64,000 nucleotides of DNA from Porticoccaceae bacterium LTM1. GTDB lineage: Bacteria > Pseudomonadota > Gammaproteobacteria > Pseudomonadales > Porticoccaceae. The position numbers were made by a program, and so were the translations under genes. The stretch spans positions 880,501 through 944,500 of the forward strand of contig CP127080.1 in the NCBI GenBank assembly GCA_030252795.1. Reading direction: 5' to 3'. Shown in pieces: positions 86 to 46,705 of the stretch (the stretch's first letter is position 1; every line of letters begins with the position of its first letter). A model generated the notes under the pieces. That model was given only the letters and a program-made list of their open reading frames with translations, searched no databases and was not told the origin of the DNA.

Positions 86-1150
86 ATGTTGAATAAAAGC
101 TTGAAAGTTGTAACTTCGATTGCGTTGATGCTGCTGGTGAGTTCTGCATTTGCCAAGAAAGATGCACCTTGGATTACGGATATGGAGCAGGCCAAGAAAA
201 TCGCTAAGGCCGAAGGAAAAAGCATCTTCATGTTTTTTACCGGTTCTGACTGGTGTGGCTGGTGTATCAAGCTGGATGAAGAGGTATTGTCCCATGATGA
301 ATTTCTGGATTACGCCAAAGAAAAGCTGGTGTTGGTGGAGCTAGACTTCCCTCAGGATGAGAGCCTCGTAACTGAGGAGCAGAGAGATCACAATGAGAAA
401 TGGAAGGACGTGTTTCAGCCAAGAGGTTATCCCACTGTTTACCTGACCGACGCCTCTGCACAGGCCTATGCCCAGACAGGTTATCAGGCAGGTGGGCCGC
501 AGGCATACATTGAGCATCTGGAAAGCTTTGTCGCTCAGAAAACTGCTGTGGAGGAGTTGACAGAGAAAGCGCTTCAGGCCAGTGGCATGGAAAAAGTAAC
601 CCTTCTGGATGAGCTTCTCACAAAGGGTGGAAAACTCGTTAGTGGTAAAAGTGATTTGATGGCAGAAATTCTTGCGTTGACCAAAGGCAAAGACGAAGCG
701 ATGTACAATAAATACCGCATGCTCAAAGGCGGCCAAGATTTAGTCGATGGCGCCGATGCCTTGATGAACAGCGATAAGAGTGCAGACCAAAAGCTCAAGG
801 GTATGCTTGAGCTGTTTGCTGCAAACAGTTTTGTAAAGGAGGGTGAGGCTCTGGAAGGCTTCCTGCAGAATAACCTGGCATCAGCATTTCCTATGGCCGG
901 TAAAGCAGATCAGGGCGTGGAGTTCTTTGGCGAAAAGGCATCAGATGAAAGTTATGACCTGCCAATGCGTCAAATGTTTACCGTCATGCAAGGTTTTATG
1001 TATGCAGAAACCGGTGATGAAGAGAAAGCTGTTGAGCTTGTGGATGAGGCCATAGATATGGATCCGGATACCCTGGAAGAACATCTGGATAGCTTATACG
1101 GACAAATTCGCAAAATTCTCCAGCGTCGCAAATTACAGGTTGCGCCATAA
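86..1150 (+). CDS. Periplasmic thioredoxin-like protein, tail of an upstream module
   Basis: 354 aa. Residues 1-23 form a signal peptide ending AFA, so the protein should be periplasmic. A thioredoxin-like domain follows, with the redox motif CGWC at residues 57-60 inside FFTGSDWCGWC and a GYP cis-proline-type loop near residue 113. The C-terminal two thirds are helical and TPR-like, without a family I can name. It is clearly paralogous to the gene at 7420-8505, which ends signalling module 1. I infer that this copy ends a fourth module whose receptor lies before the window. The ATG follows a good AGAGGA ribosome site. A hairpin lies just upstream and a terminator just downstream. Likely role: thiol-disulfide exchange in the periplasm; the partner is unknown. 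Confidence 0.8.
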   Translation: MLNKSLKVVTSIALMLLVSSAFAKKDAPWITDMEQAKKIAKAEGKSIFMFFTGSDWCGWCIKLDEEVLSHDEFLDYAKEKLVLVELDFPQDESLVTEEQRDHNEKWKDVFQPRGYPTVYLTDASAQAYAQTGYQAGGPQAYIEHLESFVAQKTAVEELTEKALQASGMEKVTLLDELLTKGGKLVSGKSDLMAEILALTKGKDEAMYNKYRMLKGGQDLVDGADALMNSDKSADQKLKGMLELFAANSFVKEGEALEGFLQNNLASAFPMAGKADQGVEFFGEKASDESYDLPMRQMFTVMQGFMYAETGDEEKAVELVDEAIDMDPDTLEEHLDSLYGQIRKILQRRKLQVAP

Positions 1151-1204: not shown

Positions 1205-1725
1205 TATAGGAGCGGGTTGAGCAGCGAACCATGCTAACAGCCGACGCAATAGCGGCCCTATTAATAACACTCGATACCCTCCGAAACCAGTAATCTCACC
1301 TCGCAGTTACCGCCCACGCAATATAGCCCGATTTACATAGTGCTCTAAGAGGCTGTTCATTCAATTTTGGGGTAACTCCAAAAATTAGAAAGGCGGAGTG
1401 GTGATAAGTTTAATAATTTCAATGAGTTAGATGTTTATTGGTCTTGATTTGAGTGAGCTTAAGGGGGGGGCGGCCTTATTTCAATGTTCTTGCCAACTTT
1501 TCTAGAGCTACTATATATCTAAGACCAACTAACAGCTTAATACGTATGTGCAGCAGTTACATGATATACGGAAATACCGCTATAGACGCTCCCGAGAGTA
1601 GGTTGGTCAATTGCATAGCCGATTACACTTGGCGTAATTAATTTTCAAAAACTTTCAAAAAAGTGAGGGAAGGTCGAATTTCAAACGTGCTCTCCATGCT
1701 TAGATGTGTCCGCAGGGAGACTAAA
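1205..1725. other. Gene-free stretch before signalling module 1
   Basis: No convincing gene. The 62-codon open frame at 1453-1641 has no homology I recognise and no good ribosome site. A hairpin AATTTTGG / CCAAAAATT lies at 1363-1386. The right end should hold the promoter of the sigma gene. Confidence 0.5.
1671..1693 (+). promoter_or_regulatory. Candidate ECF promoter of module 1 sigma gene (weak)
   Basis: AGGTC, 11 bases, then GTGCTCT. A similar pair (AGGTC, 10 bases, GTGCTCT) lies at 3815-3836 upstream of the module 1 receptor. The right edge is 33 bases before the proposed GTG start at 1726, matching the spacing in modules 2 and 3. The spacer differs by one base, so support is modest. 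Confidence 0.3.
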
Positions 1726-2325
1726 GTGAAGTTCGCAGAATCCGCGATGAGAAAGGTTATTGATATTAATGGTCGAAAGCCTGAGTCAAACGATCAGGTA
1801 TTAGAGCGACTGTTCAGTGAGCATATTGGGGCACTCCGTGGCTTCATTCGCATGCGGCTGGGCGTCGGAGAAGATCTTGATGACGTCATTCAGGAGGTGT
1901 TTGCACGCCTTGCAAGACTGGATAACCTGGCAGAACGTTTGCCTATTGATGGTGAAAGTAATCGTTCTTATCTGTTTGCTGTTGCGAACAATCTAGTGGT
2001 TGATATGGAACGACGCAAGGTTCATCTGCGGAGGTATGTTGAAAGACAGCAGTCCAACTATCTGGAAGAGTTGGAGTGCGGTTCTCAAAATCCCGAATCA
2101 ATTGTTTTGGCACATGATGATATTAAAACTCTAAGACAAGTTATTTTCAAAATGAAACCAACCTGGCGTGATGCTTTTATCCTAACTCGAATACAGTGCC
2201 TTAGTTATAAAGAAGCTGCAGATCATATGGGGGTTACGATAAAACAGATAGAAGGTTTCCTGACCAGAGCATTTAAACACATTCGCAAAGCCGATATCAG
2301 CATTATAAAGGAGGAGAAAAAGTGA
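1726..2325 (+). CDS. ECF sigma factor, FecI-like (module 1)
   Basis: 199 aa from the GTG at 1726. The frame is open back to a GTG at 1663, but 1726 has a good AGGGAGA ribosome site and gives a length matching the sigma factors of modules 2 and 3 (196 and 198 aa). An ATG at 1747 is another option. Region 2 is visible as LFSEHIGALRGFIRMRL..DDVIQEVFARLARLDNL. Region 4 is visible as WRDAFILTRIQCLSYKEAADHMGVTIKQIEGF, a helix-turn-helix. It should direct RNA polymerase to the receptor promoter once released by the FecR-like protein. The stop overlaps the next gene's start by 4 bases, indicating translational coupling. Confidence 0.9.
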   Translation: MKFAESAMRKVIDINGRKPESNDQVLERLFSEHIGALRGFIRMRLGVGEDLDDVIQEVFARLARLDNLAERLPIDGESNRSYLFAVANNLVVDMERRKVHLRRYVERQQSNYLEELECGSQNPESIVLAHDDIKTLRQVIFKMKPTWRDAFILTRIQCLSYKEAADHMGVTIKQIEGFLTRAFKHIRKADISIIKEEKK

Positions 2326-3410
2326 TTCGTAAATTAAGGGAAGAACTGATGCTGAGTCGTAGTGCCAGAGAGGTTACAAAGCTCTACAGTGATGAGGTTG
2401 ATGCTGAGGATGTTGAGCGAATCAGTCAGTGGAAATCTCAAGAGGAAGAGTTCAAGGCTAATTATGTGCGAATGAATCACTTGATATCAGATCTGGAGGC
2501 CTTGGCTGGTGATGAGGAGTTGATGTCTCTGGTCGGAAATCCGGTGCCTAAACATGAATTGCAAAAAGAACCTGTAATTAAGGGGCGTTGGCCTCAAGTG
2601 GCGATGGCGGCCTCATTGATTTTGGCAGTTTTGATATCACTGACCTTTGTTTCTTTTGAAGAAGTTAAGCCGCAAGGAGATCGCTTTGTCACTCGCATTG
2701 GAGAGCAAAAAGAAGTCATGTTGGACGATGGCTCCTCTGTTTTTCTCAATACCAACTCTGAGGTAGTTGTCACATACAGTGAATCAGAAAGATCAGTAGT
2801 CCTTGAGCGTGGTGAGGGTTATTTTGAGGTCGCCAAAGACCCTGATCGTCCGTTTGTGGTTAATGTGGGAGAGAGGCGCGTTATCGTTCTTGGGACGGCA
2901 TTTAACCTTCACAAAGAAGCGGATCAAATAGGGCTGGAGGTTGTAGAAGGTGAAGTCGCAGTTGTTCAGTCAGAAGAACTGCTGAATAACCCTGTTCGAT
3001 TGCAGCTCCCTGAAAAAGGCTTACAGAATTTGAATGTGGCTGATCAGTATCGTGTTGCTTCAGGAGAATCGATTACATACAGCCTGGCTACCAATATATT
3101 TACCGGGGAAAGAATTGAGGATTTAACTCGAGTAAGTAGTTGGCGTAATGGCTTGATTCGTTTTTCTGAGGAACCACTGGATGAAGTTGTTGAGGAGCTG
3201 AACCGATATTCAGCCAAGAAGATTGTGATAGAAGACCCTGAAGTTGAGGATATGAAGTTGTTTGCAACAGTTCGAGTGGATCGAATTGAAGAGGCGTTGA
3301 GGGTTTTGGATATGAGTATGCCAATACATGTTGATAGTTATTCTGACAGAATAGTAATCACTAAAGAGGATGACTTTGATAAAAAGCAAAAAGCCGTTAT
3401 CAAGAAATGA
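2322..3410 (+). CDS. FecR-like anti-sigma/signal relay protein (module 1)
   Basis: 362 aa. The cytoplasmic N-terminus (about 1-88) should bind the sigma factor. One membrane segment lies near residues 90-112 (VAMAASLILAVLISLTFV). The periplasmic FecR domain begins at RFVTRIGEQKEVMLDDGSS and includes LNTNSEVVV and ERGEGYFEVAKDPDRPF. The C-terminal part (EEPLDEVVEELNRYSAKK) resembles the STN-like domain known from FecR-type regulators. The GTG start overlaps the sigma stop and has a strong AGGAGGAG site. By family knowledge it carries the receptor's signal across the inner membrane. Confidence 0.9.
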   Translation: MIRKLREELMLSRSAREVTKLYSDEVDAEDVERISQWKSQEEEFKANYVRMNHLISDLEALAGDEELMSLVGNPVPKHELQKEPVIKGRWPQVAMAASLILAVLISLTFVSFEEVKPQGDRFVTRIGEQKEVMLDDGSSVFLNTNSEVVVTYSESERSVVLERGEGYFEVAKDPDRPFVVNVGERRVIVLGTAFNLHKEADQIGLEVVEGEVAVVQSEELLNNPVRLQLPEKGLQNLNVADQYRVASGESITYSLATNIFTGERIEDLTRVSSWRNGLIRFSEEPLDEVVEELNRYSAKKIVIEDPEVEDMKLFATVRVDRIEEALRVLDMSMPIHVDSYSDRIVITKEDDFDKKQKAVIKK

Positions 3411-3488
3411 GGATGTTAGTAGTTTTTCATTTGTTTCTTTGAAAGGAATTCCTGGAAAGATTTTCTGCTGATATCTCCAATATCAATC

Positions 3489-3504
3489 GTGACCTGGTGG
3501 TCAC
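3489..3504. promoter_or_regulatory. Perfect inverted repeat, possible operator
   Basis: GTGACC, 4 bases, GGTCAC. It lies 80 bases after the FecR-like gene and about 385 bases before the receptor start. No regulator can be assigned. Confidence 0.25.
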
Positions 3505-3814
3505 AATAGGTGATTCATCTATATTGTCACAGCTATGGCCAATATCTATTCTGATTTATTAACCCTTTGATGTGGGTTTTCTTTTTCTATTCAAATGGTT
3601 ACGTGATTACGTTCTGAGTGTTAACTTCAAGTTTGTGGCGCTTTTGTCGGGCGAATGTCAAGATTTTATCTAATTTTCCGGTGATTATATTGGGCAATTG
3701 ATCAAGTATGACTGGAGTTTTGACGGATACTTCATCTTTTTTTAAAAAAATTATATGAAAAGTGAGGGGGTGAGTGGATTTGTTCGTGATCTCACTGAAA
3801 AGACCCACAGCTAG

Positions 3815-3836
3815 AGGTCTTTCTTGTGAGTGCTCT
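3815..3836 (+). promoter_or_regulatory. Candidate ECF promoter of module 1 receptor (weak)
   Basis: AGGTC, 10 bases, GTGCTCT, partner of the element at 1671-1693. It ends 53 bases before the receptor ATG; the equivalent gaps in modules 2 and 3 are 68 and 63 bases. Confidence 0.3.
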
Positions 3837-3889
3837 TTGAGAGGTTTATCTCCTTTGGGGGCAAATAAAATTTAGATAGAGGTAGGTAT

Positions 3890-6800
3890 ATGAGCTTTGG
3901 TACTGGTAATAGGTTTCGTAAGAAAAAACTTGTGCTTGGGTTGAGTTCGGCTATAGCTTTTACGGTTTCTTGTGGGGCTTTGGGCGGGGAAAAACTTCTG
4001 GATTTGAATATAGAAAAGCAGGGAGTTGGTAATACACTAATGGAGCTCGGAGAGAAAGCCGGTGTGCAAATTATTCTTCCACAAAACCTGGGTTTAAGCT
4101 TTGATGCTGCAGCTATTCAAGGGAAATTTACTCTGGTAAATGCTCTTAATCAAATACTTAAAGGGTCAGATCTAAAGTATAAGTTTGTCTCTGATAGCTC
4201 TGTTTTGATCAGTGATTCTGATGATGAAGAGGAAAACTCTGAAAAAAAAGATGAAGAGATAGAAGATATTGTCGTAACAGGTAGCCGCTTGGTTCAGGAT
4301 CCAGGTAAGCTAACTCGCCAGGTTACCACGATTAGTCGGGAAGAGTTGGAAGCCAGCGGTATGTCTCGCCTTGATGAATACCTGCGTCGTTTGCCTCAAA
4401 ACCTTAATGCTCCAAGCAATGTGGCTTCTGGTACGTTTGAGTCCGGTGTCTCCTTTGGTCGTGGGGCAAACGTATTTGCAGGCAGCGGCGTAAACCTTCG
4501 TGGGTTGGGTGAGCAATACACGCTCATTCTGATTGATGGTCGTCGTCCAGCAAAAGGAGGGCTTTTTGGTGATGTTACCGATATCAGCTCAATCCCTATT
4601 TCTCAGGTAGAGCGTATTGAAATACTCTATGATGGTGCGGCTGCAATATATGGAGCAGATGCGGTTGGTGGTGTCGTCAATATCATTACCAACAGAAACT
4701 TTGAAGGTACAAATATTTCAATTGACATCACCAGGCCGGAAGATAATGGTGCTGAAGAGCTGAATGTAAATATTGGTCATACATTTAACTTTGGTGATAG
4801 CCAGCTGACACTCAATGGCTCTTATCAATCCCGTGAGCCACTGGTGGCTACAGATCGCAATATTCCATTTACACCTCTGCCAGCTGGCGGTCAGGGCTTC
4901 GCGCTTTCGGATGACCAGAACTTGATTCTTTATCCGTCCAGCCCCGCCAATATTGGTACTGGTTTCAGTGTTCCTCAGGTACTGATGTATGTTAAAGACG
5001 TGGATGGTGACGGCAGAACCGATAATGAGGCACTGGATGAGCGCCTCTCTGGTAGTGTTCTGATTCCTACTTCATGGGGTGGTACCACTCGCACTGATAG
5101 AGATGAGCCAGAGGGTTATATCCCTGTTTATACCCTGCAGCTACCTGAAGGACGAGACACGCTCTCACTTTACGATATCCAGGAAGACGTAAATGCGCCA
5201 CTCCCTGCCGCAGGTGCTTCACAAGAAGAAACACTGATTGCTATGCGCGCCAGATTCCCGCTGGGAGAAAACTCCTATGTGCCAGGTGCAGGTTATAGCT
5301 TGTTACCTGAGGATGAAACGCTTGCAGGTAGCTTGAATTATAACTATCAGGTTTCTGACGATTTGAGCGTTAATCTGGCTGCCAGATACTCAAAGTCTAC
5401 CCGTGACAGCTCAACCAGAAATGATACCCACCAATATGTAGTTACATGGTCAGTTCCTAACAACCCGTTCAATTCTAACTTCTTCTTTAACTACAGTGAT
5501 GGTCTGCCTCAGACTGTTCAAGAGGTAGAAGTTGAAAATACTTCAGTATCGGGTGGCTTTGAATATGACCTGAATGACAATTGGAGTATGCAGTTCGGTT
5601 TCGGTTTCAGTGAAAGTGATAGTGTTTCTAACAGTACTAATTCTGTAAATAGTTCAGCGTTAGGCGCTGCAGTCCAGGGTAGATATTACGATTACGATGT
5701 CTATCAATACGTAGAGAATGGGCTGGGTTATTTTAAAGAGAACTTTGGCTATAACAGCTATGAAGAGTATGTGTCTAACGTAATCATTCCATTGGTTCAT
5801 ACCAATACTGTTACAGAGTCTACTGATATTGATATCAGTCTTACCGGTGTGGTGGCTGAGTTGCCGGCTGGTGATATGAGAACCAATATTATTCTCTCCC
5901 ACAACAAAAATACGACAGACATATATTCGGAGCAGTTTTTTAGCTTTTTGAATACAGCTAATAACTATGAGGACGGTGTGCTACTCAACGAGTCAAGTGG
6001 CAGCACACGTAATGGCATAGGTATGGAGCTGTCAGCCCCATTGCTGGATACATTACTTGCAAATGTTAATGGCAGGTATGAAAAATACGATAACATTGAT
6101 GATACCGCATTGAACTGGGCTGCCGGGTTTAACTGGGAGCCGGTTGAGTGGATGACTGTGCGATTGAATCGAACTTTTAGCACTATTGTCCCTGATTCAA
6201 TGACTACTGGTATTCCGGCTAAATTGCGTTCTGGTAGCTTCTATCTAAGAGATGAAAATAGAGGCTATTTGCCTGGTTATCCACGGGAGACTGCATTTTA
6301 TGTTTATGGTGGTAATGATAGTCTCACACCTGAAACTAATTACGGTACAACATTAGGTATTGTGGTAAGACCGTTGGAAGGGCTTGAGATTCAAGCTAAT
6401 CTGACTGACTCAAATACCTTTGACCGTATTGGGATTCCCGGCGTTAATATTGCTTATACGCCTTCAGAGCTGACAGCAGAGTCGATTGCTTCGAACCCTA
6501 TTCTGTATCAAGTACAAAATGGACAGGTTACAGTTGGTAATCAAACCTACACAGAATCCAGTGTGACAGCAACCTCATCGTCAATTCCTCTGATTGAAGA
6601 TGCCTATGTATTTGATCGCCGTGAAATCAACTTGGGGGATGCTTCTTCTCGAAGTGCTGACTTCCAGTTGCGCTATCGTTCTTCTACTGATTTTGGTGAT
6701 TGGTTCTTAACCTATACCCACCAATATATGATGGATTTTGAAATTCGCCCCGGTAATATCTGTGGTGAAGGTGTTTGCATCAGTGAAATTTATGCTTATG

Positions 6801-7327
6801 ACTACAGGAATCGGGTGGCTGCTTATCAACCTGCGGATACCCCATTTGATCAGGTTGGATCCATTGATCGACGTCAGGTAAACACACGTGGCTATTACCC
6901 ACTACCAGAGCATCGAGGCTCATTTGATGTAACTTGGTCGTACCGTGGACTCAGTGCAAATCTACAGACCACAGTTCAATCAGAAACTTCAATTATCGAA
7001 GAGGAGCGTCGGGAAGGTTTGGCTGATAATGGTGACCTGCTGTGGCGAATCAATACAAACGAAATCATCACTAAAGCAGCAACGCCTGTTAACCTTAATA
7101 TTGGTTATGACTTTTCTGGTGACCTGTTTGATGCACCAAATTGGCTGAAAACCACTCGTGTCAACTTGTTGATCAGCAACTTGTTCTACGACGAATCAAA
7201 AATTAGTCGTAAAGTACTTGATCAAGAGTTTGAGCCAGATGATTTTGAGTCACTTCAATCATTCACACCATTTGGTGTTGATCCGTATGGTCGCACTTTG
7301 CGACTTGGCATTAAGACAACTTTCTAA
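3890..7327 (+). CDS. TonB-dependent receptor/transducer with STN domain (module 1)
   Basis: 1145 aa. A signal peptide is followed by an STN signalling domain (about 35-108), an acidic linker, a TonB box-like IEDIVVTGSR (about 125-134), a plug domain with LRRLPQN, VNLRGLGEQYTLILIDGRRP and GAAAIYGADAVGGVVNIIT, then a long beta barrel ending in Phe (IKTTF). The STN domain means the receptor can signal to the FecR-like protein. Two features are shared with the module 2 and 3 receptors: a DVDGDG loop at residues 370-375 and a CX4C pair at 958/963, the only cysteines I see in the mature chain. The ligand is unknown; nothing marks it specifically as a siderophore receptor. It is closest to the module 3 receptor. 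Confidence 0.92.
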   Translation: MSFGTGNRFRKKKLVLGLSSAIAFTVSCGALGGEKLLDLNIEKQGVGNTLMELGEKAGVQIILPQNLGLSFDAAAIQGKFTLVNALNQILKGSDLKYKFVSDSSVLISDSDDEEENSEKKDEEIEDIVVTGSRLVQDPGKLTRQVTTISREELEASGMSRLDEYLRRLPQNLNAPSNVASGTFESGVSFGRGANVFAGSGVNLRGLGEQYTLILIDGRRPAKGGLFGDVTDISSIPISQVERIEILYDGAAAIYGADAVGGVVNIITNRNFEGTNISIDITRPEDNGAEELNVNIGHTFNFGDSQLTLNGSYQSREPLVATDRNIPFTPLPAGGQGFALSDDQNLILYPSSPANIGTGFSVPQVLMYVKDVDGDGRTDNEALDERLSGSVLIPTSWGGTTRTDRDEPEGYIPVYTLQLPEGRDTLSLYDIQEDVNAPLPAAGASQEETLIAMRARFPLGENSYVPGAGYSLLPEDETLAGSLNYNYQVSDDLSVNLAARYSKSTRDSSTRNDTHQYVVTWSVPNNPFNSNFFFNYSDGLPQTVQEVEVENTSVSGGFEYDLNDNWSMQFGFGFSESDSVSNSTNSVNSSALGAAVQGRYYDYDVYQYVENGLGYFKENFGYNSYEEYVSNVIIPLVHTNTVTESTDIDISLTGVVAELPAGDMRTNIILSHNKNTTDIYSEQFFSFLNTANNYEDGVLLNESSGSTRNGIGMELSAPLLDTLLANVNGRYEKYDNIDDTALNWAAGFNWEPVEWMTVRLNRTFSTIVPDSMTTGIPAKLRSGSFYLRDENRGYLPGYPRETAFYVYGGNDSLTPETNYGTTLGIVVRPLEGLEIQANLTDSNTFDRIGIPGVNIAYTPSELTAESIASNPILYQVQNGQVTVGNQTYTESSVTATSSSIPLIEDAYVFDRREINLGDASSRSADFQLRYRSSTDFGDWFLTYTHQYMMDFEIRPGNICGEGVCISEIYAYDYRNRVAAYQPADTPFDQVGSIDRRQVNTRGYYPLPEHRGSFDVTWSYRGLSANLQTTVQSETSIIEEERREGLADNGDLLWRINTNEIITKAATPVNLNIGYDFSGDLFDAPNWLKTTRVNLLISNLFYDESKISRKVLDQEFEPDDFESLQSFTPFGVDPYGRTLRLGIKTTF

Positions 7328-7346
7328 TACTGATTGATGTCTATAT

Positions 7347-7385
7347 CACATAAAAAGGAGGCTCTTATAGCTTCCTTTTTATGTG
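7347..7385 (+). terminator. Hairpin between module 1 receptor and thioredoxin genes
   Basis: A 15-bp stem (CACATAAAAAGGAGG with CTTCCTTTTTATGTG, one mismatch) lies 20 bases after the receptor stop. The right arm supplies TTTTT, so it may terminate or attenuate and lower expression of the next gene. Confidence 0.7.
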
Positions 7386-7419
7386 TCAATTTTAAATTAA
7401 ATCTATTTGGAGGGATGTA

Positions 7420-8505
7420 ATGCTTAAATTGGCCTTTGGAGTGCTTTCAATCCTCTTGCTGTCTACGTCAAGCGTAAGTGCCTGTGATCAATGTGATGAG
7501 GATAAGCAAGGCAGTTCCAGTTCGCATGACGTCTGGATAACAGATATGGATGAGGCACAAAAGCTTGCCAGGAAAGAGGGTAAAGATATTTTTATGTTCT
7601 TTACAGGGTCTGATTGGTGTGGTTGGTGTGTGAAGCTGGAAAAGGAAGTCCTTTCTAAGCAAGAATTTATTGATTTTGCTTCAAGTAAATTTGTATTGGT
7701 TGAATTAGATTTTCCGGCAAAAGATGACATTATCAGCGAGGAACAACGCGCTCATAATGAGATATGGAAAGAGAAGTTTAGTCACAGTGGCTATCCTGCG
7801 ACCTATTTGACCACAGCTTCGGTTGAGCGCTATGGGAAAATTGGTGGATACTGGGCTGGTGGTCCGGCGGTTTATAATAATAAGCTTGAAAATCTGTTGG
7901 AAGCTAAACATGAGGTTGAGCGTTTACTTTTCAAAGCAGAGCAGTCATCCGGGATTGAACGAGCAAAATTATTGGATGAAGCTATGAGTATTGATGGTGC
8001 AATCATTGAAAGTCGCAAAGCTTTTATTGATGAGTTAATAAGTTTGGCTAAAGACCGTGATCATGAAATTTATGTGAAGTATCGTGATATTAAGGGTGAT
8101 AATGAGCTGATAGAAAAACTAACTGCTCTACGCTCCGTTGATGATGGTGCGGAAGCTGCTTTGAATTCAGCTTTGAGTCTTTTTCATGAGTACAGTTATC
8201 TTAAGGATGGGAATGGACTGTCACGGTTGATAACGGTTCTCTCAGGGGCGTTTATTAAAGTTGGTGCCTATGATAAAGGTATGAGTTTCTTTGATGATCT
8301 GGTGGCGGATAAAAGCTATTCAGTTAAGGCGCGCCAAAGGTCAATGATAAATAAAGCTTATATCATGGGTGCAAATGGAGAATTGGATCAAGCGAAAGGG
8401 TTGATAGATTCGGCGGTAGATATGGCTCCTGATCTGATTTCAAGTGGACTGAAAGACTCTATGCTTTATCACTTAAATAAAGTGAGTAAAAGTGTTGAAG
8501 ATTGA
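7420..8505 (+). CDS. Exported thioredoxin-like protein (module 1)
   Basis: 361 aa, paralogous to the protein at 86-1150. The signal peptide ends near VSAC, which loosely fits a lipobox with Cys22, so it may be a lipoprotein; a second cysteine follows at 25. The thioredoxin-like domain has CGWC at residues 67-70 in FFTGSDWCGWC. The C-terminal region is helical, with no named family. AGGGATG precedes the ATG. It follows the receptor on the same strand after a hairpin. Likely role: thiol-disulfide exchange in the periplasm, perhaps on the receptor's CX4C pair or on the imported ligand; this is inference. Confidence 0.82.
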   Translation: MLKLAFGVLSILLLSTSSVSACDQCDEDKQGSSSSHDVWITDMDEAQKLARKEGKDIFMFFTGSDWCGWCVKLEKEVLSKQEFIDFASSKFVLVELDFPAKDDIISEEQRAHNEIWKEKFSHSGYPATYLTTASVERYGKIGGYWAGGPAVYNNKLENLLEAKHEVERLLFKAEQSSGIERAKLLDEAMSIDGAIIESRKAFIDELISLAKDRDHEIYVKYRDIKGDNELIEKLTALRSVDDGAEAALNSALSLFHEYSYLKDGNGLSRLITVLSGAFIKVGAYDKGMSFFDDLVADKSYSVKARQRSMINKAYIMGANGELDQAKGLIDSAVDMAPDLISSGLKDSMLYHLNKVSKSVED

Positions 8506-8556: not shown

Positions 8557-8613
8557 TAGTTGTCCCGTCCTGAATAACGTTGACACTTTTCAATCACCGA
8601 ATTGGAAAGTGAC

Positions 8614-9015: not shown

Positions 9016-9038
9016 GCGTCACGAAGGCTTGCCAGATC

Positions 9039-15416: not shown

Positions 15417-16007
15417 TTGAATCTCAGCAAGTCGAGAACAAACGTGGTCGAGTTCCCCTCCAGATCGTCTGAAACCAGGAAAAAGCTGCTGGATCGTCTC
15501 TATGATGATCATGGCAATGCGCTACGGTCTTTTGTTGGATTAAGAATGGGTGGGCACGTCGACGCTGATGATGTCGTGCAGGATGTCTTCACCAAGCTTG
15601 CCCAGATGGATAACTTAAAAGGGGTGCTCCCTTCAGAATATAAGTCTGAGCGGGCATATATTTTCCAGATGGCAAGTAATCATATTATCAACCTGTATCG
15701 ATACAGATCTGTTCGGAGAAGATATTCTGATCCAGAGGCCGTGGAAGAAGTTTGTGATTCCGTTGAGGAGCGAAGTCCCGAGCGTATAGTGTTGGCACAA
15801 CATGAGCTCGAAGCGGTTCGCAAGGCCATTCAAAAATTGCCGGAGTCGTGTAGGCAGGCCTTTCTACTGTGTAGATTTAAGCAAAATACTTACCCCGAGG
15901 TTGCCCAACAAATGGGGGTGTCGGTAAAACAGGTTGAAAAGTATATGCAGAAGTCATTGATAGTAATCCGTCGTGTTGCTAAGCGACTCAGGGAGGCGGA
16001 GAAATGA
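15417..16007 (+). CDS. ECF sigma factor, FecI-like (module 2)
   Basis: 196 aa from a TTG at 15417 with AGAGGG seven bases upstream; a nearby ATG (15413) is out of frame. Region 2 reads LLDRLYDDHGNALRSFVGLR..DADDVVQDVFTKLAQMDNL. Region 4 reads LPESCRQAFLLCRFKQNTYPEVAQQMGVSVKQVEKYM. It should recognise the AGGTGTCTAGTG promoters of this module. It is followed by a FecR-like gene overlapping by 4 bases. Confidence 0.9.
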   Translation: MNLSKSRTNVVEFPSRSSETRKKLLDRLYDDHGNALRSFVGLRMGGHVDADDVVQDVFTKLAQMDNLKGVLPSEYKSERAYIFQMASNHIINLYRYRSVRRRYSDPEAVEEVCDSVEERSPERIVLAQHELEAVRKAIQKLPESCRQAFLLCRFKQNTYPEVAQQMGVSVKQVEKYMQKSLIVIRRVAKRLREAEK

Positions 16008-17041
16008 ACATTGAATTTGCAGAACGCAAAGCGGCTGCTGATGCAGCTCTGTTGCTGCACGGTACCCCCAGTGACGAAGAGATGGCCAGAATTGAAAGTG
16101 CCAAAAACCAGTCAAAAGAGTATGCGACTTATTTAAATGAGTTTTTAGTTGTAAGTGACTCACTTGAAGGTCTGCAGGACGATAAGATCCTGCTGTCCCA
16201 GCTTAACGTCGTTACTCGAAAAAAATCGTCAAGTCACATTAAGAAAGTTAGCTGGATGGTTATTGCTGCCTCCCTGTTGGTGACGGTGGCTACATCCTTT
16301 CTTTGGACAAATGAGCCGGTAAGTCAGGCGGAAATGTCTCGCTACGTATCCAGGGTTGGTGAGCAAAAACTCATTGAGCTTGAAGATGGTTCAAGCGTGA
16401 TGATGAACACGGGAACCGAGATCATTGTCGAAATGACGGATCAGCATAGAGCTGTGATACTCAATCGTGGAGAGGCATATTTTTCAATTGCTGGTGACCC
16501 TGAAAGACCTTTCAATGTATCGGTGGGTGATCGTTCAGTAACGGTCCTCGGTACAGAATTTAATGTAAAAAAGCAAAATAATGGATTTATACTAGCGGTA
16601 AATGAAGGGTTGGTGGCGGTTCATGCTGAGTACGAGCCAGTTAATGCTCAGTCCGAACAAATAAGTCTTGATGTTGATGATGGGGCAAGAATGCTGGATC
16701 TTCAACAACGTCGGTTTGGTGCCGGAATGGTGGCTGAATTTAATGTCGACGAACGTATGACCACTGTTTATAAGCCGGAAAGTATCAAAAAGTTTGTAGG
16801 TTGGAAGTCCGGTGTTATTCGGTTTGAAGGCGTACCGATGTCGGAAGTGGTAATGGAGTTGAACCGCTATTCAGGTAAGAAAATCTTAATCAAAGATCAA
16901 AGTGTGTTCAATATCATTATATTTGCTTCCGTAAATGTAAATAATATTTCTGAAGCTATAAATATGCTTGATGTGGCTTATCCAATTGATGTTATTCACC
17001 AGTTTGATCAGATAGTCCTGGTTTCACAAAAAGATAAATAA
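16004..17041 (+). CDS. FecR-like anti-sigma/signal relay protein (module 2)
   Basis: 345 aa, same architecture as the module 1 protein: N-terminal sigma-binding part, one membrane segment near 85-103 (WMVIAASLLVTVATSFLW), FecR domain (RYVSRVGEQKLIELEDGSS..LNRGEAYFSIAGDPERPF) and a C-terminal STN-like segment (VPMSEVVMELNRYSGKKI). The ATG overlaps the sigma stop by 4 bases; AGGGAGGCGGAGAA upstream. Confidence 0.9.
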   Translation: MNIEFAERKAAADAALLLHGTPSDEEMARIESAKNQSKEYATYLNEFLVVSDSLEGLQDDKILLSQLNVVTRKKSSSHIKKVSWMVIAASLLVTVATSFLWTNEPVSQAEMSRYVSRVGEQKLIELEDGSSVMMNTGTEIIVEMTDQHRAVILNRGEAYFSIAGDPERPFNVSVGDRSVTVLGTEFNVKKQNNGFILAVNEGLVAVHAEYEPVNAQSEQISLDVDDGARMLDLQQRRFGAGMVAEFNVDERMTTVYKPESIKKFVGWKSGVIRFEGVPMSEVVMELNRYSGKKILIKDQSVFNIIIFASVNVNNISEAINMLDVAYPIDVIHQFDQIVLVSQKDK

Positions 17042-17159: not shown

Positions 17160-20100
17160 ATGAGTATTCGCTATAACAAATTTAAACCTAAAAAAATTGC
17201 TGTTTCGATCGGTGGAGCCTTGGCTATCATGCTGTCTGCTGCAGTCCATGCAGAAATAAAGGATGTTGATCTGAAAATTGACAGTAAATCAGCAGGTAAA
17301 GCTATTCTTGATCTTGCTGAGCAGACCGGCAGCCAAATTGCATTTCCAAGTGCACTTAACACCAAACTGATTCTGCCTGAAATTCAAGGCCAATATACAG
17401 TTACTGAAGCACTTGACTTTATGCTCCAAGGTACTGGCTTGGTGTATCAAGTGCTTTCTGACAGTTCAATCGTAGTGAAAGAAGGTGAAAAAGAAGCTTC
17501 AACTTCTGAATCAAAAAAAGAAGAACCAGTAGAAGAAATTGTTATAACCGGTTCTCGCCTTATTACTGATCCAGGTAAATTAACCAGGCAGATTACCGTT
17601 TTTGATCGTTCAGAGATTGAGAGAAGCGGCGCAACAAGACTTGATGAATTTCTTAATCGCTTGCCTCAAAATGTAAACGCTCCCAATAATATCGGGTCAG
17701 GTTTTCAAATGGGTAGCTCCGCTCCGACAGACTTTGGTGTGGGTGCTAATGTTTTCGCAGGAAGCAGTATCAATCTGCGTGGCATGGGTTCCCAGTATAC
17801 GTTGATTCTGGTCGATGGCAGGCGCCCGCCGTCGGGGGGGCAATATGGTGATATTACCGATATTTCAAATATCCCTATTGAGCGGGTTGATCGCATAGAA
17901 ATTCTGTTTGATGGTGCTGCCGCAATTTATGGTGCTGATGCTGTTGGTGGTGTGGTTAATATTATTACCAATCGAAGCTATTCCGGTACCAATGTCAGTT
18001 TGACTTATGGTGACACCACAGAGGGTGGTGGTGCCCGTACCAATCTCAGTATTGGTCATACTTTCAATTGGGGTAGTGGTTCTGCAACCGCAACGGTTGG
18101 CATGCAGTCTCAAGAGCAAATTGATGGCGCATCTCGGGATAGTCGCCTTGCAGATACTCTAGCTTATAGTTTGCCACCGTCCTCTCCTGGGAATGTTTCA
18201 GGTCGCGGGGTAGTGAATTATCGAGTAACAGATTTGCCTCTTTTCTGGGTTAAAGATGTTGACGGCAATGGTGATACACTCAACCAGTCACTGAATGAAC
18301 GCCTGACAGGTGGCGTTGAAATTGCGGTGCTGGAAAGAAGAGCTGCCTGGATAAATGGGGTCCCAAATTATGAGTATGTTGAGACTACGGCAATAGTTGA
18401 TCGCCGGAATCCGGTTTTACCATCTACTCAGACAGCTTTGGATCCGTTGCCGACAGATCCAAGTCTGGATGGTTATAGGCCGGTAATGGCTGCCCAAATT
18501 CCAGAGGGGGCTGGCTCCGGAACCACGATCTATGATTTTAGCGATAGTGAAGAGCTTGGGGAGAGTGAATATATTCCTTTCCAGGGTATGGCCCTCACTC
18601 CTGAAGATAAAACTCATTATGCCAGTTTGGATCTGGACCAAGATATTAACGAAGATCTAAAGTTAGCTCTCTCTCTGAATTACAGCAAAACTGAAAAAAT
18701 CAGTAATACCAGTGGTAATACTAATCTTTATTCTGTTGCTGCCAGTGCAAGCAATCCGTTTGTGCAGGGTTTAACTTATTCGTTTACTAATGCTTTTCCT
18801 CAGCAGTTTCAGCTGGTAGATCAGTCATCCATGGGTGTTTCAGGGAATCTTCTCTGGGATATTAATGATACCTGGCGTTCCAATCTGGGCTTTTCCGTAA
18901 GCAAAGGAAAGAATCGCTCCCAGTCGGTCAACCAGATTCGCAGTCGTCAGACAAGTACTGCCAGATCACTGGAAGAGATTGAGCCAAACCTGGGAGATCT
19001 TTTGAATGGCTATAGCTATTATTACGATGAGAATTTTGTAAGACATAATGTTGATTTGGGAGTTAGTTTCCTGGATCCAAATCTGGGTTACGATAGCCCG
19101 CAAGCCCTTGCTGCAGCTCTGGCAGACCCTGATCTATTAACGGTCAACAACTCAACTAATCGGGAAGTTGATTTGAACGTACAGGGAACATTGTTTGAAA
19201 CTTCCGCGGGAAGTGCGACGACTAATATCTTTCTTTCTCACCGAGTAACTGAGAATTCATTATTTAATAGCAACAAATTTTATAGTAACGATGGCCTGTT
19301 AGATGGTAATGGATTTGGCCAAATTATTACGAAGTATGATGTTGAAACAGAGCTTTCAACTAATTCTGTGGCAGCTGAATTGGCTGTTCCGACGGTTAGT
19401 GAAGATATGGCTGTACCATTTGTGAAAGGACTTCTGTTTAACGCCAGTGCTCGATATGAAGATTATTCAACTACAGAAGAGTCAGGACTCAATTGGCAGT
19501 TGGGCATGAACTGGGAAGTGAATGACTGGATGACCGTTCGACTAAATCGAACGTACAATTTGGTTGTTCCCGATGCTATGAAGTCCGCACTCCCGGAAAG
19601 CTTTTATAGAACGTCCCTCAAGCTGTGGGGGGATCCTGACGATTTTGCAACCCGATATACTCATAGCTCTCCCTTGTGGACCTTGAACGGGGGTACGGAT
19701 AACCTGAAACCAGAAACAAACTATGGAACAGCACTGGGCTTTATTTTCACTCCGACTTTTGTTGATGGCTTGAGAATTCAGCTAAACCTGACCGAGTCAG
19801 AAACGCAAGATCTTATCAGTGCCAATGGTATGGGTGACCCTGGAGCGATTGGTCGCTGGACTGCGGATTACATTTCGCCAGAGAATATTGCGTTGAATCC
19901 GGCACTCTCTATTGCTGATCCTGAAAATAATCCTGACCATCGATTGTTTTATTACACCAGTACGGGAACTCTTATTGAAGTGGCTCCCGGGGATATTATT
20001 TGGGATAACCGTGCAGTTAATACGGGCATGCTATACAACCGCGGAGCTGACCTTGAGGTAAGTTATCATCTTTCCAATACTTGGGGAGATTGGTATTTGT

Positions 20101-20654
20101 CATGGCGACATCAGTATCTGGATGCTAATGAAGTCACCAACTCAAGTATTTGTCAGGGGGGCGTGTGTGACACAACGCAAGAGCTTGATGGTATGGCAGT
20201 GGATACTGTTGATACAGTCGACCGTTATCATACGCAAAAGTTTGCATTGCCCGAACACAGTGGCTCGGTGGATTTAAGTTGGGGGTATGATGGACTTACT
20301 GTTTCATTGTTTACCCGTTATCAGGAAGAGACGTCAATTCTTAAGTTTCGAGAGTGGAGCCGTATTGATAATGTTGTTTATTACAATTACCCCAGAGAAA
20401 CAACAAGCCCAGCCAAATCGGTTGATATGACAGCCAGTTACGATTTTTCCCATGGGAAAGGTTTGCCCTCCATGTTTGAAAGTATGAAGGTTAGTTTATC
20501 GGTGGCGGGGGTATGGCGTAGCGACCGTAAATTCAAGAGAGAGTATGTCTCGCAGGAATTTACGCCAGAAGCTAATCCTCGCGGCGAGTTGAACAGGAGT
20601 AGTTATAATGCTCGTGGTCGAGCATTTACTCTGAGGGTAAGCAGCTCGTTCTAA
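17160..20654 (+). CDS. TonB-dependent receptor/transducer with STN domain (module 2)
   Basis: 1164 aa. Signal peptide ending VHAE, STN domain (about 33-105), charged linker, TonB box-like VEEIVITGSR, plug (FLNRLPQN, INLRGMGSQYTLILVDGRRP, GAAAIYGADAVGGVVNII) and barrel ending in Phe (LRVSSSF). It is the most divergent of the three receptors but keeps the DVDGNG loop at residues 366-371 and the CX4C pair at 998/1003, again the only cysteines I see. AAAAGGTAGGTAT precedes the ATG. Ligand unknown. Confidence 0.92.
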   Translation: MSIRYNKFKPKKIAVSIGGALAIMLSAAVHAEIKDVDLKIDSKSAGKAILDLAEQTGSQIAFPSALNTKLILPEIQGQYTVTEALDFMLQGTGLVYQVLSDSSIVVKEGEKEASTSESKKEEPVEEIVITGSRLITDPGKLTRQITVFDRSEIERSGATRLDEFLNRLPQNVNAPNNIGSGFQMGSSAPTDFGVGANVFAGSSINLRGMGSQYTLILVDGRRPPSGGQYGDITDISNIPIERVDRIEILFDGAAAIYGADAVGGVVNIITNRSYSGTNVSLTYGDTTEGGGARTNLSIGHTFNWGSGSATATVGMQSQEQIDGASRDSRLADTLAYSLPPSSPGNVSGRGVVNYRVTDLPLFWVKDVDGNGDTLNQSLNERLTGGVEIAVLERRAAWINGVPNYEYVETTAIVDRRNPVLPSTQTALDPLPTDPSLDGYRPVMAAQIPEGAGSGTTIYDFSDSEELGESEYIPFQGMALTPEDKTHYASLDLDQDINEDLKLALSLNYSKTEKISNTSGNTNLYSVAASASNPFVQGLTYSFTNAFPQQFQLVDQSSMGVSGNLLWDINDTWRSNLGFSVSKGKNRSQSVNQIRSRQTSTARSLEEIEPNLGDLLNGYSYYYDENFVRHNVDLGVSFLDPNLGYDSPQALAAALADPDLLTVNNSTNREVDLNVQGTLFETSAGSATTNIFLSHRVTENSLFNSNKFYSNDGLLDGNGFGQIITKYDVETELSTNSVAAELAVPTVSEDMAVPFVKGLLFNASARYEDYSTTEESGLNWQLGMNWEVNDWMTVRLNRTYNLVVPDAMKSALPESFYRTSLKLWGDPDDFATRYTHSSPLWTLNGGTDNLKPETNYGTALGFIFTPTFVDGLRIQLNLTESETQDLISANGMGDPGAIGRWTADYISPENIALNPALSIADPENNPDHRLFYYTSTGTLIEVAPGDIIWDNRAVNTGMLYNRGADLEVSYHLSNTWGDWYLSWRHQYLDANEVTNSSICQGGVCDTTQELDGMAVDTVDTVDRYHTQKFALPEHSGSVDLSWGYDGLTVSLFTRYQEETSILKFREWSRIDNVVYYNYPRETTSPAKSVDMTASYDFSHGKGLPSMFESMKVSLSVAGVWRSDRKFKREYVSQEFTPEANPRGELNRSSYNARGRAFTLRVSSSF

Positions 20655-42668: not shown

Positions 42669-42695
42669 AGTTAACTACAATGTTGGGTAGTGATT

Positions 42696-44435
42696 ATGTC
42701 GCTTAACTTACTTGCGAGAATTCAGGTTGTTTTAGGTCTGGTTGCAACAATACTTTCTGGAGGTGCGGTAATGGCTGGTCCTGATCGAATCACCGGAATT
42801 GACGGCACCACCCGATCAGAAGTGATAGCCCCAAATGGCATGGTGGCTACCAGTCAGCCCCTGGCAACCCAGATAGGGCTGGATATTCTCAAACGCGGCG
42901 GCAACGCAATTGATGCTGCCATTGCGACAAATGCGGCACTTGGATTGATGGAGCCGACGGGATGTGGAATTGGCGGCGACCTGTTCGCTATTGTCTGGAG
43001 TGCAAAAGATAAAAAGCTCTACGGCCTGAATGCCAGTGGTCGCTCTCCGCAGGGATTAAGTTATCAGCAGCTTCAAGAAGAGCTTAATAAGCTCAATCGC
43101 GATGATATTCCACCATACGGCATGCTGCCTATTTCTGTGCCGGGAGCAGCGGATGGCTGGTTTGAACTGCACAAAAAGTTTGGCAAATTATCCATGCAAG
43201 AGGTTTTGCAACCGGCTATTGGCTATGCGGAAAATGGATTTCCTGTCTCAGAGCTTATTTCTTTCTATTGGAATTTAAGTGTTCCTCGTTTAAAGGAACA
43301 GCCGGGAGCATTTGCATCGACATTTACCATAGATGGCAAAGCTCCTCGCAAGGGGCAGATGTTTCGAAATCCCGATTTGGCCTCTACTTACCGACAGTTG
43401 GCCAAAGGCGGCCGTGATGTATTTTATCGTGGTGCCATTGCCGAACAAATTGATGCCTTTATGCGCAAAGAGGGCGGATACCTGCGCAAAGCAGATTTTG
43501 AAAATCATCGCTCAGAATGGGTTGAACCACTATCCACTAACTATCGCGGTTACGATGTCTGGGAACTGCCCCCCAACGGGCAGGGCATTGCCGCTTTGCA
43601 GATGCTCAATATCCTCGAAGCTTACGACTTGAAATCCCTGGGTCACAACAGTGCTGAATTTCTGCACCTGATGGTGGAAGCCAAAAAACTGGTGTTTGAA
43701 GATCGCGCCAAATTCTATGTCGACCCGGATTTTCACAAGATTCCTCTCCAGGGATTACTCTCCAAAAAGTATGCTGCTGAGCGTCGCAAGTTAATTGGGG
43801 AACGCGCTGCCCGGCGGGTGGAGGCCGGTAATCCACGCTTGCAACAGGGTGATACCATTTACCTGACCACTGCCGATAGCCAAGGCAATATGGTTTCCCT
43901 GATTCAAAGCAATTACCGGGGGATGGGTTCTGGAGTGGTAGTGCCGGGGTTGGGGTTTGGTTTTCAGGATCGGGGACAGCTGTTTTCCATGGACCCCAAA
44001 CACGCCAATGTCTATGCGCCGGGCAAGCGGCCCTTTCACACCATCATTCCCGCCTTTATGACCAAAGATGGCAAACCGGTGATGAGCTTTGGCGTCATGG
44101 GTGGTGCCATGCAGCCACAAGGGCATGTGCAGATAGTCGTTAACCTGATTGATTTTGGTATGAACCTGCAAGAGGCGGGCGATGCAGCCCGCTGGCAGCA
44201 CTATGGGTCAACCGAACCGACCGAGAGCCAGAATGCGTTATTGGCTACTGGTGGTGAGCTGGCTGTTGAATCCGGTATCAACTATCAGGTTGTTCGAGAA
44301 CTGATGGATAAAGGACACATGGTTAGGTATTCAAGAGGGTATGGCGGCTATCAGGCAATCTGGTATGACGCGGAGCAGGGCGCTTATTACGGTGCCAGCG
44401 AGTCCCGCAAGGATGGTCAGGCAGCAGGATACTAG
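42696..44435 (+). CDS. ggt: Gamma-glutamyltransferase
   Basis: 579 aa from the ATG at 42696; a GTG at 42690 is also in frame. A signal peptide (LGLVATILSGGAVMAG) sends it to the periplasm. Family motifs: GGNAIDAAIATNAALGLMEP, GCGIGGDLFAIVW and SVPGAADGW. The nucleophile threonine that starts the small subunit after self-cleavage should be Thr387 in GDTIYLTTADSQGNMVSL. It cleaves gamma-glutamyl bonds, as in glutathione. It lies between the ABC exporter and module 3. Confidence 0.92.
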   Translation: MSLNLLARIQVVLGLVATILSGGAVMAGPDRITGIDGTTRSEVIAPNGMVATSQPLATQIGLDILKRGGNAIDAAIATNAALGLMEPTGCGIGGDLFAIVWSAKDKKLYGLNASGRSPQGLSYQQLQEELNKLNRDDIPPYGMLPISVPGAADGWFELHKKFGKLSMQEVLQPAIGYAENGFPVSELISFYWNLSVPRLKEQPGAFASTFTIDGKAPRKGQMFRNPDLASTYRQLAKGGRDVFYRGAIAEQIDAFMRKEGGYLRKADFENHRSEWVEPLSTNYRGYDVWELPPNGQGIAALQMLNILEAYDLKSLGHNSAEFLHLMVEAKKLVFEDRAKFYVDPDFHKIPLQGLLSKKYAAERRKLIGERAARRVEAGNPRLQQGDTIYLTTADSQGNMVSLIQSNYRGMGSGVVVPGLGFGFQDRGQLFSMDPKHANVYAPGKRPFHTIIPAFMTKDGKPVMSFGVMGGAMQPQGHVQIVVNLIDFGMNLQEAGDAARWQHYGSTEPTESQNALLATGGELAVESGINYQVVRELMDKGHMVRYSRGYGGYQAIWYDAEQGAYYGASESRKDGQAAGY

Positions 44436-44734
44436 AGCCCGTAGACATTAAGACCTATTAACATGCTTCGTGCACCTCATATCAGGGGTACACCGTTACG
44501 GGGCTCTACTTCAGAGTATATACGAGTTGATCTGTAGTATTGATCACTAAGTATTGAGTTAGTGTATTAAACTACACCATGTTGGAAAATGTTATTAAAA
44601 ATCATATTGTTATGGTCTTTCCTGGCGGTGTCATTCAGTATTCTTCCGTCTAAACTAAAAATATTCACAGATTTCGTTCGGTTTGGCGGCTTTCAAACGT
44701 ATACCTGGTGAGAACGAAGAAGTATGGGCCTCTC
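44436..44734. other. Intergenic region before module 3
   Basis: About 300 bases, no gene seen. The right end holds the module 3 promoter at 44675-44701. The rest shows no structure I can name. Confidence 0.5.
44675..44701 (+). promoter_or_regulatory. ECF promoter of module 3 sigma operon
   Basis: CGTTCGGTT, 11 bases, AAACGTA. The same two blocks with the same 11-base spacer recur at 46616-46642 before the module 3 receptor, with ACC one base further on in both. The block spacing fits -35 and -10 elements. It ends 33 bases before the ATG at 44735. Confidence 0.72.
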
Positions 44735-45331
44735 ATGAGAAACACCATGTCGGTAAAAAATGACAACATCATTGATTTTAATAGCCGTTTCCTGTCAAAG
44801 AAGGAGTTTCTGAGACGACTGTATGATCAGTACGAAACCTCTGTTCGAAGGTTTTTGTATGCTCGTTCGGTTAATTTCGATGAAGTTGATGATATTACTC
44901 AAGATGTCTTTGTGCGCTTGGCGCGTATGCCGGACTTGATGGAAAAGATTGACCCTGATGAAGATCGGTGTCGCTCGTATCTATTTTCAATTGCACACAA
45001 TATAGTAGTGGACAGAGAGCGACATAAGGCGATAAAGAGGCGCCATAAAGAGAGTGGTAAGTTGGGTAATCCTGCCGATGTATATGAAATTTCACCAGAA
45101 ATAGTTATTTCAAGCCAGCAGGATTTGAAGTTGTTGGAAAAAGCAGTTGTGGAATTGCCGGAAAAGTGGCGAACAGCGTTCTTGCTCAGCCGTTTTAAAT
45201 ATCTTCCTCAAAAAGAAATCGCGAAAAAAATGTCTGTTACTACCCGTGCTGTCGAAAAATATATATCAGCAGCCATTAAGCAATTAAGAAAATGCCTGGA
45301 GTATGGCGCAGGAGCGAATCGTGAGCAGTAA
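44735..45331 (+). CDS. ECF sigma factor, FecI-like (module 3)
   Basis: 198 aa from the ATG at 44735. A GTG at 44708 is in frame but would fall at the predicted transcription start, so it is unlikely; an ATG at 44747 is possible. Region 2: LRRLYDQYETSVRRFLYAR..EVDDITQDVFVRLARMPDL. Region 4: LPEKWRTAFLLSRFKYLPQKEIAKKMSVTTRAVEKYI. It should read the CGTTCGGTT/AAACGTA promoters. Confidence 0.9.
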   Translation: MRNTMSVKNDNIIDFNSRFLSKKEFLRRLYDQYETSVRRFLYARSVNFDEVDDITQDVFVRLARMPDLMEKIDPDEDRCRSYLFSIAHNIVVDRERHKAIKRRHKESGKLGNPADVYEISPEIVISSQQDLKLLEKAVVELPEKWRTAFLLSRFKYLPQKEIAKKMSVTTRAVEKYISAAIKQLRKCLEYGAGANREQ

Positions 45332-46642: not shown

Positions 46643-46705
46643 AACCTTATAGCAGACTCGAATTCTGCAATGAAAATACAAAACTTATAGGTGGATTTAC
46701 TAGGT

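Follow-up and report, generated by a model that had tools for sequence, protein, structure and literature searches.

What is an exported thioredoxin-fold protein doing in the slot directly behind a signalling TonB-dependent receptor? The question is raised by a 64,000-nt stretch of Porticoccaceae bacterium LTM1 (contig CP127080.1, positions 880,501-944,500 of the forward strand; hereafter, the window), in which an initial annotation had recognized three modules of sigma factor, FecR-like and receptor genes, two of them ending in a thioredoxin-like gene, together with a fourth thioredoxin-like gene near the left edge. All of these are present at the places assigned to them (Table 1), the thioredoxin-fold gene following the receptor in modules 1 and 2 and being absent behind that of module 3. 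The classic FecI/FecR/FecA scheme contains no thioredoxin, as the same annotation had pointed out, and the modules are a variation on this known signalling and uptake scheme rather than a separate kind. The host (a 3.13 Mb genome of the same genus as Porticoccus sp. W117, Gammaproteobacteria) shows an association of receptor and thioredoxin that is real, strong and lineage-specific. In the reading that we prefer, and to which we assign a probability of roughly 45%, the modules would serve the induced import of putative disulfide-bonded cargo, and the exported thioredoxin would act in the periplasm as a cargo-processing reductase supplied with electrons by DsbD.

Profile searches of the genome returned 69 Plug, 43 FecR, 26 Thioredoxin_7 and 33 Redoxin matches. 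Examination of the neighbourhoods of the 43 FecR genes gave 42 modules, the remaining FecR lacking a receptor on the same strand. A clustered sigma gene lies directly upstream on the same strand in 39 of the 42 modules and on the other strand in one, and none was called in two. Counting genes of at least 120 aa, the one that comes next behind the receptor (or tandem receptors) encodes a thioredoxin-fold protein in 23 of the 42; two further modules have such a gene within four genes, and three have a convergent thioredoxin-fold neighbour. Gene calls in the examined stretches come from a longest open reading frame (ORF) script, which can miss short genes (a DsbD_N gene in locus L123 was recovered separately) and leaves some starts uncertain. 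By profile matches, 31 of the 59 thioredoxin matches (two of the 59 contributed by one fused 846-aa protein) sit on the same strand as one of the 46 Plug matches linked to FecR and 2-6 kb downstream of it, whereas 20,000 uniform random placements of the 59 matches averaged 1.7 and never exceeded 8. For Plug matches that have no FecR link, the corresponding count is 2 out of 23. The expectation that the pairing exceeds chance in the host genome was thus borne out.

Proteins from different thioredoxin subfamilies do hold the same slot, as had been suspected: the partner in module 1 is DsbH-like and that in module 2 TlpA-like. The N-terminal domains of the 7420-8505 and 86-1150 proteins match the DsbH family NF043050 below its cut-off (101.7 and 116.8 bits vs. 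190), and the former protein matches the solved structure 2ju5 (DsbH disulfide reductase); unlike DsbH, both carry an additional C-terminal part. The thioredoxin part of the 7420-8505 model is poor, the helical C-terminus being the sole part used, and a fold search with this model gave no match at E 0.001 or below. For the 20795-22192 protein, the model (good in the end domains, weaker in the linker) predicts a beta-sandwich at the N-terminus and a helical linker ahead of the Redoxin domain. Across the examined stretches, the CxxC motif is present in all 45 thioredoxin-fold proteins longer than 250 aa (DsbD included), and even three relatives with no tryptophan before it (two in L126, one in L054) retain it; a non-catalytic thioredoxin fold is therefore unsupported. 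By simple pattern tests, 44 of the 45 have an export-like N-terminus (judged by hydrophobicity) and 10 a lipobox-like motif. The thioredoxin domains are attached to differing helper parts (a DUF4369-like sandwich with helices, a helical part, unassigned domains), and the non-thioredoxin parts form at least five sets without mutual BLAST similarity at E 1e-3, the DUF4369 type being counted as one. DUF4369 was found in 18 of 21 aligned C-terminal-type (TlpA-like) proteins at E up to 1, the window protein 20795-22192 having no match. Among Gammaproteobacteria this domain occurs in 3 of 369 genomes drawn, including our own, which alone scores above the cut-off, and among 38 relatives it occurs in our own genome and the congener G001 only. 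The first eleven plasmid matches of the paralogue at 545 kb are all from Bacteroidota (among the matches listed), and the closest solved structures for the domain of the 20795-22192 protein are from Bacteroides vulgatus. Judged by these similarities, the DUF4369-type partners were probably acquired from Bacteroidota.

The comparison with relatives covers G001, most likely Porticoccus sp. W117 and called W117 below, a third congener (G002), and other members of the family. A 60-base sequence from contig 54 of G001 recurs in the W117 locus L041. FecR matches number 43 in our genome, 20 in W117, 6 in G002 and 0-7 in other family members; for Redoxin the respective counts are 33, 21, 13 and 3-9. 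In W117 a thioredoxin is the next gene in 8 of the 19 FecR loci examined (of 20), a set that includes one locus stopping at the receptor and one without a receptor beside FecR, and in a ninth module a DsbD_N gene and a 522-aa gene precede the thioredoxin. No thioredoxin was found as next gene in the five G002 modules examined (of 6 FecR), nor as a partner in 16 stretches from other genera, several of them shortened by contig ends. Relatives' thioredoxins were sought with profiles built from our own proteins, by which distant ones could be missed; nine relative stretches showed no WCxxC among unmatched genes of 331-559 aa. On two gammaproteobacterial contigs from metagenome-assembled genomes (MAGs), L043 and L054, a thioredoxin-fold gene comes after a receptor, and no FecR was called.

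A receptor tree (96 sequences, fast MAFFT alignment, FastTree, midpoint root; the L043 and L054 receptors fall outside, and deep branches and the origin are uncertain) placed 31 of 33 thioredoxin-linked receptors in one clade of 55 (43 own, 12 from W117; support 0.895), which was chosen as the clade holding most linked receptors without any from G002 or other genera. Presence of a thioredoxin changes 20 times on this tree (shuffled mean 27.6, minimum 19). The type of partner changes 11 times among 25 linked receptors of our genome, against a shuffled mean of 13.4 (3.6% of shuffles were as low), so that partner type tracks receptor descent weakly. Since the median identity among the linked own receptors is 30.5%, with one pair above 60%, there was no burst of recent copies.

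The genes for a candidate electron supply are present and partly linked to the modules. A single DsbD_TM match in the genome corresponds to a 766-aa DsbD-like protein with DsbD_N, DsbD_TM and Thioredoxin_7 domains; its gene shares an island at 2743-2776 kb with two modules, an M13 peptidase and six further thioredoxin-fold genes, and the nearer of the island receptors is ~10 kb away. The five DsbD_N matches are DsbD itself, a 268-aa frame at 418 kb and three proteins (168 aa, 181 aa and a 644-aa FG-GAP protein) encoded by the first to third gene downstream of module receptors. W117 also has a DsbD_N gene within one module. In the three genomes of the genus (own frames at 2751322 and 417990), one DsbD_N frame of 752-772 aa is accompanied by another of 268-276 aa, and the family outside the genus (n = 22) has a single frame of 575-674 aa in 19 genomes, none in two and two frames in one. 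On the MAG contig L054, the receptor and three thioredoxin-fold genes are met by a convergent DsbD-like gene running into the contig end.

Under the preferred reading, each module would be a substrate-induced uptake system. The receptor would bind and import the cargo, and its STN domain, by analogy with the known FecI/FecR/FecA scheme, would signal via FecR to the ECF (extracytoplasmic function) sigma factor and switch the module on. The exported thioredoxin-fold protein could then reduce a disulfide or another reducible bond of the imported molecule in the periplasm, with electrons passing from the cytoplasm through the single DsbD-type protein to the exported thioredoxins and, in some modules, through a separate DsbD_N protein as a relay. 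The differing helper domains could recognize different cargos.

An alternative that we consider unlikely assigns the thioredoxins a general reductase or repair function in the envelope: they would protect outer-membrane and periplasmic proteins, their genes would have been carried along with the expanding modules, and the slot would have nothing to do with cargo. The many thioredoxin paralogues, the catalase-peroxidase behind another module receptor (L022), the weak tracking of receptor descent by partner type, and the DsbD-type proteins of the genus, which differ in length from most of the family, are all compatible with such a role. At least five mutually dissimilar architectures beside the receptors are harder to accommodate, as is the low identity of the linked receptors themselves, and 11 changes of partner type over 25 of them look like repeated recruitment.

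What the same slot holds elsewhere bears on the nature of the reaction. In 79 loci from other genomes (drawn from the best 80 matches of a scan) there are 22 FecR-linked receptors, of which 20 have a same-strand non-thioredoxin next gene, one an opposite-strand next gene and one, in W117, a thioredoxin; among receptors without a FecR link a thioredoxin was found in 2 of 69. Six next genes were tested against the Atxe2-type isopeptidase model NF033523: four, all from sphingomonads, passed its cut-off, one matched below it and one had no match at 1e-20. The tested W117 modules that lack a thioredoxin have a sulfatase together with two glycosidases (L120) or a gamma-glutamyltranspeptidase (GGT; L121), and glycosidases occupy the post-receptor slot in Bacteroidota examples. 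In 12 Bacteroidota plasmid FecR regions, taken in rank order with one unannotated record skipped (9.5-kb flanks, incomplete gene table, one region showing no receptor), no annotated TlpA was seen. Six plasmid TlpA matches from Bacteroidota were also opened: one is a Spirosoma oryzicola locus with the order sigma/FecR/SusC/SusD/TlpA/cysteine synthase/CcdA/pitrilysin/M3 peptidase, and a receptor lies within four genes in two others; because these loci were chosen through TlpA, they are uninformative on frequency. Among the loci sampled, a thioredoxin is thus not a general companion of FecR/receptor modules, and the initial proposal of a regular fourth partner, put to the suggested comparison with other receptor loci, is supported in our genome and in part in W117 but not as a wider rule. 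The slot is nevertheless commonly filled by an enzyme that processes the cargo, a part that would fall to a reductase in Porticoccus.

A reductase in this place might also act on a metal. We regard it as distinctly improbable that the substrate of the thioredoxin-fold proteins is a receptor-imported metal or chelate (Fe(III), Cu(II)) instead of a nutrient disulfide, or that they serve a metal site, even though FecI/FecR/FecA systems classically import ferric chelates. A thioredoxin reductase mutant of Bacteroides fragilis is reported to fail to grow on Fe(III)-ferrichrome (PMC5552952), a TlpA-family gene is listed in an iron-stimulon table of Prevotella intermedia (PMC10434189), and the solved structure 4txo is, by its title, TlpA bound to a copper chaperone. 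Against this, 25 receptor-thioredoxin pairs exceed the apparent needs of iron uptake, no siderophore or ABC transporter gene was seen among the downstream genes identified (a part of the total), and the W117 modules with other partners hold the glycosidase, sulfatase or GGT genes mentioned above.

The shared need for disulfide chemistry that had been proposed for these loci remains plausible, but its target is mostly not the receptor or FecR. Among 27 thioredoxin-linked receptors, 16 have no cysteine past residue 45, and the mean number of cysteines is lower in linked receptors (1.11) than in 22 others (1.86), several of which have the same kind of cysteine pair; the unlinked receptor of module 3 also bears one pair. 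In FecR, where the most hydrophobic 19-residue stretch (a simple test for the transmembrane segment; n = 42) starts at residue 82-135, 39 of 42 proteins have no cysteine beyond that segment. The receptor and FecR are therefore rejected as general redox targets, and the cargo becomes the natural target; the cysteine-bearing minority, which includes the two linked receptors of the window, may still be acted on. The same counts make it highly improbable that the thioredoxin is a signalling part that sets a switch by making or breaking a disulfide of the receptor or FecR, an idea to which the constant place beside signalling genes, the single cysteine pair in both linked window receptors, and the thioredoxin linkage of all three FecR with a periplasmic cysteine lend some appeal. 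Finally, an origin of the pairing in a small number of recent tandem duplications, or in chance within a genome so rich in both gene types, can be practically discounted and is rejected as the sole cause: some modules do stand in tandem and the uniform random test takes no account of duplication, but the observed 31 was reached in none of the 20,000 placements, the linked receptors are too dissimilar (one pair above 60%), and W117 has the same pairing.

Several observations weigh against cargo reduction as we propose it. No thioredoxin is the next gene in 19 of the 42 modules, and one of the three module DsbD_N proteins belongs to a module without a thioredoxin (1266 kb). The remaining 11 of the 27 linked receptors, both linked receptors of the window included, carry two to five cysteines, and each of the three FecR proteins that bear a periplasmic cysteine comes from a module with a thioredoxin as next gene. 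A reducing-type CxxC motif is no proof of reductase activity. Peptidases, which would be expected for disulfide-bonded protein cargo, were seen near some modules (S9, M13) without a systematic count, and the lack of annotated TlpA in the Bacteroidota plasmid regions points the same way.

The junction between receptor and thioredoxin gene has a feature of its own. A hairpin of -10 kcal/mol or lower ahead of a T-run is found at 18 of 25 receptor-thioredoxin junctions in our genome. Among other same-strand gaps it occurs in 29 of 127 (Fisher p 4e-6 for the difference), between FecR and receptor genes in 4 of 38 gaps, and in convergent gaps in 23 of 40. In the window, module 1 shows such a hairpin and module 2 does not. 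The respective figures in W117 are 6 of 8 receptor-thioredoxin junctions vs. 4 of 18 FecR-receptor gaps, and L054 has none. The hairpin sequences vary, and for 8 of the 18 the T-run lies less than 35 bases ahead of the thioredoxin start. This arrangement suggests read-through attenuation, which may hold the enzyme below the receptor in abundance. Because receptors with other same-strand neighbours have the hairpin too (5 of 15 in our genome, 2 of 6 in W117), it may partly mark receptor ends generally.

No description of FecI/FecR/receptor/thioredoxin modules was found in the open-access literature, judged by titles and abstract openings, and the modules can be set beside three known arrangements. 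With FecI/FecR/FecA systems they share an ECF sigma factor, a FecR-type regulator and a TonB-dependent receptor with a weak STN match in one cluster; they differ by the secreted thioredoxin after the receptor in 23 of 42 modules and by the lack of fec-type transport genes among the downstream genes identified. The Atxe2-type isopeptidase is part of sphingomonad lasso peptide biosynthetic clusters with FecI/FecR/receptor genes (reviewed in PMC9266682). Those clusters have the same signalling and receptor genes, and the enzyme beside the receptor opens a covalently locked peptide; it is an isopeptidase (NF033523) there and a thioredoxin-fold protein in window modules 1 and 2. Among Bacteroidota sigma/FecR/SusC/SusD loci, that of Spirosoma oryzicola likewise continues from sigma, FecR and receptor genes to a TlpA-type protein. 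Such loci contain SusD, whereas in the window modules, to which this comparison applies, the next gene is thioredoxin-fold (1 and 2) or a convergent peptidase (3). The partners here share a TlpA/ResA-like C-terminal domain with Bacteroidota DUF4369-TlpA proteins and differ in their host, a gammaproteobacterium, where DUF4369 is very rare.

As to the window itself, the description of its receptors as STN receptors is sound for the Plug domain, which is strong in all three, and softer for STN, whose scores in modules 1, 2 and 3 (24.4, 28.7 and 23.8 bits) exceed the Pfam cut-off of 28.4 in module 2 only. Position 1726 is an in-frame GTG within the module 1 sigma gene, for which a longer call begins at 1663. 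The 86-1150 gene, taken initially as the tail of another module, begins 67 bases past a 2173-aa TPR gene, the last member of a MoxR/DUF58/VWA cluster that follows the FecR/receptor module at ~858 kb. Such a tail is plausible, but two small opposite-strand ORFs, followed by a 499-aa gene, lie between that receptor and the cluster and leave the assignment unproven. Three homologous clusters (genome 858-881, 430-450 and 1201-1221 kb) consist of a FecR/receptor module followed by MoxR, DUF58, VWA and a 2109-2192-aa gene, whose TPR identity was established in the one tested; a thioredoxin-fold gene sits between MoxR and DUF58 in the 430 kb cluster, and no thioredoxin was seen in the 1201 kb cluster as far as 1224 kb.

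Other neighbours were noted in passing. A two-frame element with an rve integrase core (8602-9836; labelled IS3-like by us) lies directly behind module 1, and its relatives (cluster c6) adjoin other modules. GGT genes adjoin FecR/receptor modules in all three genus genomes (L121:8018-9754 in W117, L139:6506-8245 in G002 and window 42690-44435). A 743-aa peroxidase-family (catalase-peroxidase-like) gene (L022:7517-9748) comes after the receptor of the 1225 kb module. At L033:9637-13323 there are three tandem thioredoxin genes, near kin of the two DsbH-like ones of the window, with no module receptor ahead. Behind module receptors, members of a family of 500-509 aa proteins (c12) turn up repeatedly in company with a DsbD_N gene or a thioredoxin (L025:7394-8923, genome 2471154 and 2757575); Pfam gave no match for one member.

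Table 1. Genes and other features of the sigma/FecR/receptor modules in the window (window coordinates).
Feature	Coordinates	Strand	Evidence
ECF sigma factor, module 1	1663..2325	+	Sigma70_r2 and Sigma70_r4_2 above cut-off
FecR-type anti-sigma regulator with FecR_C, module 1; zero cysteines	2322..3410	+	
Plug/STN TonB-dependent receptor, module 1, 1145 aa; single cysteine pair 958, 963	3890..7327	+	Plug E 5e-18, STN 24.4 bits (below cut-off)
Hairpin and T-run resembling an intrinsic terminator, between module 1 receptor and thioredoxin gene	7345..7382	+	
Exported thioredoxin-fold protein, module 1, 361 aa: Thioredoxin_7/DsbH-like domain (WCGWC) and helical C-terminal part (modelled)	7420..8505	+	
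ECF sigma factor, module 2	15417..16007	+	
FecR-type regulator, module 2; zero cysteines	16004..17041	+	
Plug/STN TonB-dependent receptor, module 2, 1164 aa; single cysteine pair 998, 1003	17160..20654	+	
Exported TlpA/ResA-like protein, module 2, 465 aa	20795..22192	+	C-terminal Redoxin domain, WCAPC
ECF sigma factor, module 3	44708..45331	+	
FecR-type regulator, module 3	45303..46367	+	
Plug/STN TonB-dependent receptor, module 3, 1156 aa; no thioredoxin after it	46691..50161	+	
S9 prolyl oligopeptidase, convergent with module 3	50277..52421	-	
Gamma-glutamyltranspeptidase immediately upstream of module 3; possible satellite gene	42690..44435	+	
Exported thioredoxin-fold protein, 354 aa: N-terminal Thioredoxin_7 domain (WCGWC) and C-terminal part	86..1150	+	

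If cargo reduction is the right reading, a redox step would be added to TonB-dependent uptake, and a thioredoxin gene after a receptor would become a search handle for receptors of disulfide-bonded cargo. A single genus would then have assembled an extensive set of regulated uptake systems based on a chemistry not treated in a 2024 review of TonB-dependent transporters, the main text of which does not contain the word thioredoxin (PMC11658791). The system is directly testable, since an inducer, a receptor and an enzyme are predicted for every module. In a bolder and rather doubtful version, the organism would possess dozens of self-regulating TonB receptors, each tuned to a different disulfide-bonded natural product or peptide and paired with an exported reductase of its own, and one DsbD system with separate DsbD_N relays would supply all the reductases; candidate cargos could include cystine-rich peptides and glutathione-type disulfides (some modules have GGT genes as neighbours). 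Were this true, organic disulfides would be a class of nutrients with dedicated uptake loci, as glycans have.

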